The notes under the pieces were generated by a model. That model saw only the letters and a program-made list of their open reading frames with translations. It did no database searches and was not told the origin of the DNA. Position numbers and translations under genes: made by a program. Positions 8,502-10,655 of a DNA stretch of 64,000 bases are shown piece after piece. The first letter of the stretch is position 1. Each line of letters begins with the position of its first letter. The DNA is from Micromonospora sp. NBC_00421 (GTDB taxonomy: Bacteria; Actinomycetota; Actinomycetes; Mycobacteriales; Micromonosporaceae), in assembly GCF_036017915.1 (NCBI RefSeq), contig NZ_CP107929.1, forward strand, positions 62,001-126,000, given 5' to 3'.

Positions 8502-10655
8502 GTGGCGCAGGGCCCCACGGCCCGATCTATGACCGGCACCCCACCTCCCGGCCCGCCCCGGGTGCAGACCAGGATCACGGTTCCCGATGCCAAGATCATG
8601 GTCAACCTGCTCGGCGCGGGCGACGAGATCCTGCGACTCGTCGAACGTTCGGTCACCAGTGACGTGCACGTACGCGGCAACGAGATCACCATCACCGGTG
8701 CGCCCGCGGACAACGCTCTCGCCGAGCGTCTCTTCAGCGAGCTGCTCGAACTGATCGAGAAGGGCGAGACCCTGACCACTGACGCTGTCCGGCGTACCGT
8801 CGGCATGCTCGAGCAGGGCGGCACCGAGCGGCCCGCCGAGGTGCTCACCCTCAACATCCTCTCCCGGCGCGGGCGCACCATCCGCCCCAAGACGCTGGGC
8901 CAGAAGACCTACGTCGACTCGATCGACGCCAACACGATCGTGTTCGGCATCGGCCCGGCCGGCACCGGCAAGACCTACCTGGCGATGGCGAAGGCCGTCC
9001 AGGCACTTCAGGCCAAGCAGGTCAGCCGGATCATCCTGACCCGGCCGGCGGTCGAGGCGGGCGAGCGGCTGGGCTTCCTGCCGGGCACCCTGAACGAGAA
9101 GATCGACCCCTACCTGCGCCCGCTCTACGACGCGCTGCACGACATGCTCGACCCGGAGACCATCCCGAAGCTGATGGCCGCCGGCACCATCGAGGTCGCG
9201 CCGCTGGCGTATATGCGGGGTCGCGCACAGCCGTACGACGCACAGGTGCTGACTCCGGAGGGTTTCCGACCGTTCGGGTCGCTGCGGGTCGGTGACCTGG
9301 TCATCGGCGCGAACGGGACGCCCACGCCGGTGATCGGCATCTACCCGCAGGGCCCCAAGCAGGTCTACCGGGTCACCACGCAGGACGGGGCCTCCACCCT
9401 CTGCTGCGGTGAACACCTCTGGACGGTGGCCACCCCGGAGGACAAGCGGCGCGGCGGTCGGCGCACCCTCGAGACGCACGAGATGATCGGCAAGGAACGG
9501 CGGGGTCACATCCGCCGGTACGAGCTTCCGGTCGTGGCACCGGTGCAGCTCGAGTCGCAGGACGTTCCGCTCGACCCGTACGCCCTCGGTCTGCTGCTCG
9601 GAGACGGCAGCATCTCGTCGCGGACCACCCCGGCCTTCAGCACCGCCGACCCGGAGCTGGCCGACGCGCTCGACGCAGCGCTGCCCGACATCGAGCTGGT
9701 GCGCAGGAACAACTACGACTACGTGCTCCGGCACGTCAACGGTCACCGGGGCGGGGTGATCGTCGCCAATCCGATGACGCTCGCGCTCCGCGAACTGGGC
9801 CTCGCCGGTGCGAAGTCGGGGACCAAGTTCGTGCCCGACGTCTATTTGCAGAACAGTCTCGACGTCCGGCTGGCCGTCCTGCAGGGGCTGCTGGACACCG
9901 ACGGGGGGCCGGTCGTCCAGGCGGGGCGCACCTGTCGGGTGCAGTACTCGACGACGTCGGCCCGGCTGCGGGACGACGTCGTCCACCTGGTCCAGTCGCT
10001 CGGTGGGGTGGCGACCTGGCGGGTACGGGAGGCCGAGGGACGCAAGCCCGGTCTGGCCAACGGGCGTCCGGTCCCGTGTCGTGCCGACGCCTACGTCGTG
10101 GAGATCCGGCTACCGGCCGGTGTCCCGCCGTTCCGACTGGCCCGCAAGCGCCAGCAGTACGACGAGCACGGTGGCGGACGGCCGATGCGGTTCATCGACT
10201 CGATCATCCCGGCCGGGGTGCAGGAGACGATGTGCATCCAGGTCGCGGCGGAGGACTCGTTGTACGTGACCGACGACTTCCTGGTCACCCACAACACCCT
10301 GAACGACGCTTTCATCATCCTGGACGAGGCGCAGAACACCACGCCCGAGCAGATGAAGATGTTCCTCACCCGGCTCGGCTTCGGTTCCAAGATCGTGGTG
10401 ACCGGTGACGTCACCCAGGTGGACCTTCCCGGTGGGACGGCCAGCGGGCTGCGGGTGGTCCGGGAGATCCTGGAGAACGTCGAGGACGTGCACTTCGCCC
10501 AGCTCTCCAGCTCGGACGTGGTCCGGCACCGGCTGGTCGGGGAGATCGTCGACGCGTACGCCCGCTGGGACGAGCGGGAGAACCAGCAGGCGCAGGGCGT
10601 GCACGCCGTGCCGGGGCGGACCGCCCAGGGCGGCCGGGCCGGCCGGCGCCGCTAA
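8502..10655 (+). CDS. phoH: PhoH family ATPase precursor containing an intein
   Basis: The 717-aa precursor is a PhoH-like P-loop ATPase of about 360 aa (residues 1-241 plus 599-717) interrupted by a 357-residue intein (242-598). The host part has Walker A GPAGTGKT at 151-158, the RPAVEAGERLGFLPG segment, and after the intein Walker B FIILDEAQNTTPEQMKMFLTRLGF. Insertion is exactly between YMRGR and TLNDAF, next to the Walker B strand and so inside the active centre. PhoH proteins act on RNA and nucleotides, and in actinobacteria phoH heads the phoH-ybeY-corC-era chain, as here. GTG 8502 is supported by an upstream GGAAG; ATG 8529 is an alternative. Splicing is needed for a functional enzyme. 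Confidence 0.95.
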   Translation: MAQGPTARSMTGTPPPGPPRVQTRITVPDAKIMVNLLGAGDEILRLVERSVTSDVHVRGNEITITGAPADNALAERLFSELLELIEKGETLTTDAVRRTVGMLEQGGTERPAEVLTLNILSRRGRTIRPKTLGQKTYVDSIDANTIVFGIGPAGTGKTYLAMAKAVQALQAKQVSRIILTRPAVEAGERLGFLPGTLNEKIDPYLRPLYDALHDMLDPETIPKLMAAGTIEVAPLAYMRGRAQPYDAQVLTPEGFRPFGSLRVGDLVIGANGTPTPVIGIYPQGPKQVYRVTTQDGASTLCCGEHLWTVATPEDKRRGGRRTLETHEMIGKERRGHIRRYELPVVAPVQLESQDVPLDPYALGLLLGDGSISSRTTPAFSTADPELADALDAALPDIELVRRNNYDYVLRHVNGHRGGVIVANPMTLALRELGLAGAKSGTKFVPDVYLQNSLDVRLAVLQGLLDTDGGPVVQAGRTCRVQYSTTSARLRDDVVHLVQSLGGVATWRVREAEGRKPGLANGRPVPCRADAYVVEIRLPAGVPPFRLARKRQQYDEHGGGRPMRFIDSIIPAGVQETMCIQVAAEDSLYVTDDFLVTHNTLNDAFIILDEAQNTTPEQMKMFLTRLGFGSKIVVTGDVTQVDLPGGTASGLRVVREILENVEDVHFAQLSSSDVVRHRLVGEIVDAYARWDERENQQAQGVHAVPGRTAQGGRAGRRR
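9225..10295 (+). mobile_element. class 3 intein with LAGLIDADG homing endonuclease, inserted in phoH
   Basis: The intein is 357 aa, from Ala (AQPYDAQVLTPEGF) to His-Asn (FLVTHN), followed by Thr as the +1 residue. It lacks the usual Cys/Ser at position 1. It carries the class 3 WCT set instead: Trp in block B (CCGEHLWTV), Cys in block F (ETMCIQV) and Thr in block G (VTHN). In class 3 inteins the block F Cys starts splicing through a branched intermediate. Two dodecapeptides with their acidic residues, LGLLLGDGSI and LQGLLDTDGGP, indicate a homing endonuclease that looks intact. The reading frame is open throughout. Composition matches the host, so acquisition is not recent or has ameliorated. 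Confidence 0.93.

Follow-up and report, generated by a model that had tools for sequence, protein, structure and literature searches.

A probable class 3 intein with a conserved LAGLIDADG endonuclease domain in the phoH gene of Micromonospora sp. NBC_00421

The phoH locus and its in-frame insert

The window analysed here is a 64,000-nucleotide stretch of the Micromonospora sp. NBC_00421 genome (contig NZ_CP107929.1, positions 62,001 to 126,000), and it contains a phoH gene interrupted in frame by an insert of 357 amino acids (aa) that is very probably a class 3 intein. The precursor comprises 708 aa when read from an ATG start picked by eye; the longest open frame opens with a GTG at 8502 (Table 1). 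The precursor matched the PhoH family of Pfam (PF02562, E = 2.3e-90) in two stretches, the best of which (residues 118-233) reaches the junction with the insert. Walker A (GPAGTGKT) and Walker B (DEAQ) motifs are both readable and ybeY adjoins the gene, which together with the PhoH domain identifies the host protein as a PhoH/YbeZ ATPase. Across the insertion site, a homologue that naturally lacks the intein (L087) is matched by the C. glutamicum PhoH protein (3b85_A).

The insert corresponds to precursor residues 233-589 and is flanked by YMRGR and TLNDAF. Its nearest solved sequence is the gp41-1 intein (E = 1.8e-12, insert residues 6-80), with a further match to PI-SceI (E = 2.3e-7, residues 118-268), and the insert matches the HINT fold. 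Its identification as an intein is not a chance result, since 5385 of 7992 scored proteins are related to it at E ≤ 0.001 and the same type of junction (MRGR / Thr) was found in all 80 named loci described below. A preliminary description of this DNA had located the insert boundaries, Ala1, the motifs HLW (Trp66), MCI (Cys337) and VTHN, and Thr at +1, all of which we find at the same places.

Table 1. Features of the phoH region in the window.
Feature	Position	Strand	Evidence
phoH precursor, 708 aa	8529..10655	+	
PhoH N-extein, residues 1-232, ending in YMRGR	8529..9224	+	PF02562 best stretch 118-233; 3b85_A vs L087
Probable class 3 intein, 357 aa, Ala1 to Asn357	9225..10295	+	
Cys61, block B:7	9405..9407	+	Cys 192, Ser 60, Thr 8 of 260; Cys 39/39 in genus
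His64, block B	9414..9416	+	invariant, 260/260
Trp66, block B:12 (W of WCT)	9420..9422	+	invariant, 260/260
LAGLIDADG homing-endonuclease domain, residues about 113-322 (our own division)	9561..10190	+	PF14528; PI-SceI structural match; dN/dS about 0.21
Asp127, acidic residue of LAGLIDADG motif 1 (LLLGDGS)	9603..9605	+	Asp 249/260
Asp226, acidic residue of LAGLIDADG motif 2 (LLDTDGG)	9900..9902	+	Asp 254/260
Cys337, block F:4, expected initiating nucleophile (C of WCT)	10233..10235	+	invariant, 260/260
Thr355-His356-Asn357, block G (T of WCT at G:5, penultimate His, terminal Asn)	10287..10295	+	invariant, 260/260
PhoH C-extein including stop; Thr+1, then Walker B FIILDEAQN	10296..10655	+	second PF02562 stretch; Thr+1 in 39/39 intein-bearing congeners
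YbeY endoribonuclease gene	10674..11147	+	PF02130, E = 3.2e-38

Class 3 residues and known PhoH inteins

Class 3 inteins are defined by the lack of a nucleophile at residue 1 and by Trp at B:12, Cys at F:4, and Thr at G:5, abbreviated WCT (PMC3196547, PMC5050341). In the window intein, position 1 is Ala rather than Cys, Ser, or Thr, the WCT set is Trp66, Cys337, and Thr355, and His64, His356, Asn357, and Thr at +1 are all present. Conservation was assessed in a set of 260 PhoH inteins, i.e. the window copy, 63 further loci, 116 of 120 listed database proteins, and 80 named loci, in which some genomes occur twice and 245 sequences are distinct; because the rows were collected by similarity to the window intein, strongly degenerate copies may be missed. 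The three WCT residues, the block B His, the penultimate His, and the terminal Asn are invariant throughout this set; at residue 1, 244 of the inteins have Ala, 15 have Ser, and a single one has Cys. Thr occupies +1 in all 39 occupied Micromonospora loci and in all 80 named loci. WCT was also found in 14 of 15 non-PhoH relatives that were read (the exception being L072). Together with the fold match, the residues of the window intein support the class 3 assignment of the preliminary description, and it can be held with high confidence from sequence that the insert is a class 3 intein that would splice by the class 3 route.

In characterised class 3 inteins, the Cys at F:4, aided by the block B His and the Thr at G:5, attacks the N-terminal junction, after which transfer to the +1 residue, Asn cyclisation, and ligation follow (PMC3196547, PMC7664689, PMC5222942). 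By analogy, Cys337 of the translated precursor would attack the Arg232-Ala233 peptide bond, the N-extein would then be handed to Thr+1, and cyclisation of Asn357 would leave the exteins joined as a 351-residue PhoH. The Walker B motif DEAQ starts at +10, which places the insertion site within the ATPase core; unspliced PhoH should therefore be inactive, and it is a fair inference that PhoH activity depends on splicing.

Inteins in PhoH have been reported before: those of M. fortuitum and M. xenopi were aligned as class 3 (PMC6195587), and one is present in M. smegmatis, its class not being given in the text consulted (PMC7360933). The novelty implied by the preliminary description was thus overstated, and the window element is a further member of the known PhoH class 3 inteins, inserted at the same spot in related bacteria. 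No earlier description of this element turned up in the literature listings covered by searches on intein with PhoH or Micromonospora. The mycobacterial PhoH inteins, which were compared using scanned loci rather than the accessions of the published inteins, share the host gene and WCT with the window copy and, in 27 named loci, the site ([YF]MRGR|T), and align with it over their full length; four that were checked are 62-63% identical to it (62% for L081, from a presumed Mycobacterium). They differ at block B:7, where all 27 carry Ser and the window intein carries Cys. Of the class 3 DnaB inteins also compared (MsmDnaBi1, 6bs8; MchDnaB1, 6rix/6riy), MsmDnaBi1 is devoid of an endonuclease and has Asp at B:7 and Ser at +1 (PMC6195587), whereas the window intein retains the endonuclease and has Cys and Thr at these positions.

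Three phage class 3 inteins (Phrappuccino gene 2, Stubby gene 173, and PhiPA3 gene 233) are 36-40% identical to the window intein over the whole intein and retain the Trp, Cys, Thr, His, and Asn residues, but start directly after GK in a P-loop-like context, unlike those at the PhoH site. The idea that the PhoH intein came from a phage or another virus was considered and rejected, as no donor was found beyond this class 3 kinship: the viral scan gave a single relative (34%), and none of the phage records (504, 20 of them among the matches listed) reached at least 60%. PI-SceI, the VMA1 intein, is a class 1 intein residing in another host gene.

Patchy occurrence, endonuclease conservation, and mobility

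Within Micromonospora, the precursor was matched over its full length in 39 of 160 genomes, and the remaining 121 gave no full-length intein-bearing match. The site was read directly in 80 of these 121 (two batches of 40; the other 41 intein-negative genomes lie outside this count) and was uninterrupted in every case, with RGR before it and Thr or Ser after it (RGR|[TS]L), so that the presence/absence comparison among related strains proposed in the preliminary description reveals an optional element. The same description had named an alternative, a PhoH-specific domain present in all homologues, and these 80 sites refute it as a family-wide domain; a narrower version, a lineage-specific domain kept in the mature protein, draws only on the insert being in frame and conflicts with its complete intein anatomy and fold, leaving it a probability of practically nil.

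In a phylum-wide sample, a full-length intein match of at least 58% identity was found in 15 of 396 genomes, the window genome included. Among 118 genomes of presumed Mycobacterium, the PhoH match was broken at residue 233 or 234 within a frame of >700 residues in 12 and ran across the site in 99; five were cut or broken and are ambiguous, and two had no match. Scanning named genomes yielded 491 confirmed relatives, of which 80 were kept, all of them with an insert preceded by MRGR and followed by T[LI][NS]; 27 are from Mycobacterium and Mycolicibacterium, and the others include Nocardia, Nonomuraea, Streptomyces, Lentzea, and Gordonia. A scan with the intein alone drew in other inteins (rows of <50% identity), and its tally of 93/300 is not used as a count of PhoH inteins. 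The closest database proteins include one from M. rifamycinica (Micromonospora; P0001), 93% identical over the intein. A PhoH intein at MRGR|T, 68% identical to the query intein L081, also occurs on a contig titled as a Maritimibacter metagenome-assembled genome (MAG; L175), for which a misbinned actinobacterial contig seems likelier than transfer.

The insert alone matched LAGLIDADG_3 (PF14528, E = 2.7e-11), aligned structurally with PI-SceI over its full length at 20% identity, and contains two LAGLIDADG helices, each with an acidic residue (Asp127 and Asp226), in agreement with the intact-looking endonuclease of the preliminary description. Both Asp residues are retained in 36 of the 39 congeneric inteins and in 244 of the 260 PhoH inteins. 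The ratio of the median non-synonymous (dN) to the median synonymous (dS) distance was 0.104 for the splicing part, 0.206 for the endonuclease, 0.088 for the endonuclease motifs, and 0.087 for the PhoH extein (38 rows, L055 excluded; the pairs are not independent). The endonuclease domain is thus under purifying selection, and the constraint on its motifs is close to that on the host gene.

Intein history was examined on a tree built from the DNA of PhoH and the downstream genes of 79 congeners (39 with and 40 without the intein) and five other members of the family. At least 20 changes in presence are required on this tree, 15 of them on starred branches, against a mean of 26.6 for shuffled labels, so that presence is only slightly clustered. 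In AU (approximately unbiased) tests with 42 rows, the intein alignment rejected both the extein tree and the downstream tree, and the intein tree was in turn rejected by the extein and downstream alignments. The inteins of Isoptericola and Krasilnikoviella are nearer to the window intein than that of Actinoplanes is, though their exteins are farther (identities over an extein part of about 224-231 residues, not a tree). Actinoplanes belongs to the same family as Micromonospora, and the other two genera belong to another order; these identities suggest wider transfer of the PhoH intein.

The patchy distribution, the purifying selection that acts on the endonuclease, and the conflict among trees together support the proposal of the preliminary description that homing may still occur. 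At the DNA level, the endonuclease would cut intein-free phoH alleles and the intein would be copied in by repair, which would account for its persistence; active homing by the window copy itself, judged from sequence comparison and from characterised relatives, appears quite likely. The window intein is a well-kept and probably still mobile member of its known family.

Several observations weigh against this reading. The downstream tree is rejected by the extein alignment as well (p = 0.0013); phoH itself therefore recombines, and part of the tree conflict is ordinary recombination. Within the genus, distances between inteins are correlated with those between the downstream genes (0.74), which implies either exchange mostly among close relatives or much vertical inheritance with loss; much of the intein history may thus be vertical, with losses instead of gains. 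Three of the 39 congeneric inteins have lost endonuclease Asp residues (both in L055, whose intein is 328 aa; one each in L054 and L033), and shortened, decaying forms occur in other genera (L075, 264 aa; L085, 296 aa; L074, 303 aa). Co-conversion of the flanks showed no clear decay with distance from the intein: out to a few hundred bases on either side, most partial correlations with the intein were positive, but the first 66 bases downstream gave negative values. In the strict form of the vertical alternative, the intein splices, its endonuclease no longer drives spread, and frequent loss occurs by exchange with intein-free phoH; the distance correlation, the lost Asp residues, and the shortened forms speak for it, the constraint on the endonuclease and its motifs and the strong topology conflict speak against it, and we regard it as unlikely.

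The Arg codon before the junction was also tried as a homing marker and was rejected, having failed in held-out rows. Occupied sites had CGG in 25 of 39 cases, as against 9 of 40 for empty sites (Fisher p = 0.0003), and of 15 independent pairs, about 8 agreed and 0.2 disagreed (median p = 0.008), for a column chosen post hoc among 254 codon columns, several distant ones of which scored equally high. In the held-out empty sites, CGG occurred in 18 of 40 (p = 0.12; 27 of all 80 empty sites, p = 0.003), and in mycobacteria it occurred in 10 of 27 occupied and 8 of 30 empty sites (p = 0.57).

The PhoH intein as such alters no concept. With 39 sites occupied and 80 read directly as empty, it provides a densely sampled natural series in one genus, useful for studying the gain, retention, and loss of an intein in its host gene.

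Block B:7, genomic context, and other inteins

Downstream of phoH lie genes for YbeY, a CNNM/CBS/CorC protein, and an Era-like GTPase with a KH domain, and an RNA methyltransferase gene is located upstream; given these neighbours, the term rRNA-maturation operon used in the preliminary description is fair. Its further suggestion, that rRNA maturation could be controlled through splicing, found no support: none of the results points to conditional splicing, and 121 of 160 congeners have no full-length intein match. The observation of the preliminary description is confirmed, and its interpretation is partly supported.

A specific version of such control would be a redox or metal switch on PhoH maturation acting through Cys337 and the block B Cys61 (and Cys60). 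A Cys-Cys disulfide (PMC6195587) and zinc (PMC7360933) have both been reported to inhibit DnaBi1, the class 3 DnaB intein of M. smegmatis, and Cys is present at B:7 in all 39 congeneric inteins and in 192 of the 260. The remainder carry Ser (60, among them 27 of 27 mycobacterial inteins) or Thr (8), a pattern to be expected if the position simply forms hydrogen bonds. In DnaBi1, the Cys that regulates splicing (Cys48) is described as located outside the splicing blocks (PMC6195587), and the 121 of 160 congeners that show no intein also count against a switch, which we consider very unlikely. An invariant second Cys was rejected as a PhoH-wide signature: it occurs in 116 of the 116 nearest database rows but fails in the larger set. 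The B:7 Cys is a lineage trait only, and the Cys/Ser/Thr variation would fit a thiol switch no better than a role in hydrogen bonding. There is no evidence yet that the cell uses the PhoH intein as a switch. It is improbable to a still slightly greater degree that Cys61 of Micromonospora acts as a second active-site thiol through which oxidation or zinc could reversibly halt splicing, holding back an RNA-processing ATPase; if true, this redox-gated maturation step would be particular to the Micromonospora lineage and missing from mycobacteria with Ser. The variation at B:7 offers a testable contrast to the redox-sensitive class 3 DnaB intein.

Two other inteins were observed in the window genome. 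A DnaB gene (L003, G000:C1:5872657-5876094) contains a class 3 intein at about 1507-2448, after the P-loop Lys (GLGK|ALALD...PTHN|S), whose endonuclease looks decayed because its second motif reads LLDAAG. A GyrA gene (L005, G000:C1:5818184-5821426) contains an intein that starts with Cys, matches LAGLIDADG_3 (E = 4.1e-20), and ends in SHN followed by Thr; by its look, it would be class 1. M. smegmatis has inteins in these three hosts too, DnaB, GyrA, and PhoH (PMC7360933).

Among the 15 non-PhoH relatives read, 14 (L003, L046, L070, L071, L073, L076, L086, L127-L130, and L132-L134) start directly after GK or GKG, mostly in a P-loop-like context; PhoH inteins occupy a different spot in their ATPase, just before Walker B. 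L072 (G270:C82:3400-6500, 1012-2052) is a class 3-like relative without the block F Cys and the terminal Asn, and is probably a dead intein or remnant. A PhoH intein in a MAG of Streptosporangiaceae (L211, 1498-2574) carries Cys at residue 1 together with the full WCT set, a possible mixture of class 1 and class 3 known from a single metagenome contig. Directly upstream of phoH (6960-8387, + strand), a gene for a beta-lactamase-fold protein with DUF7586 lies between the gene for a HIT protein and the rRNA-maturation genes.
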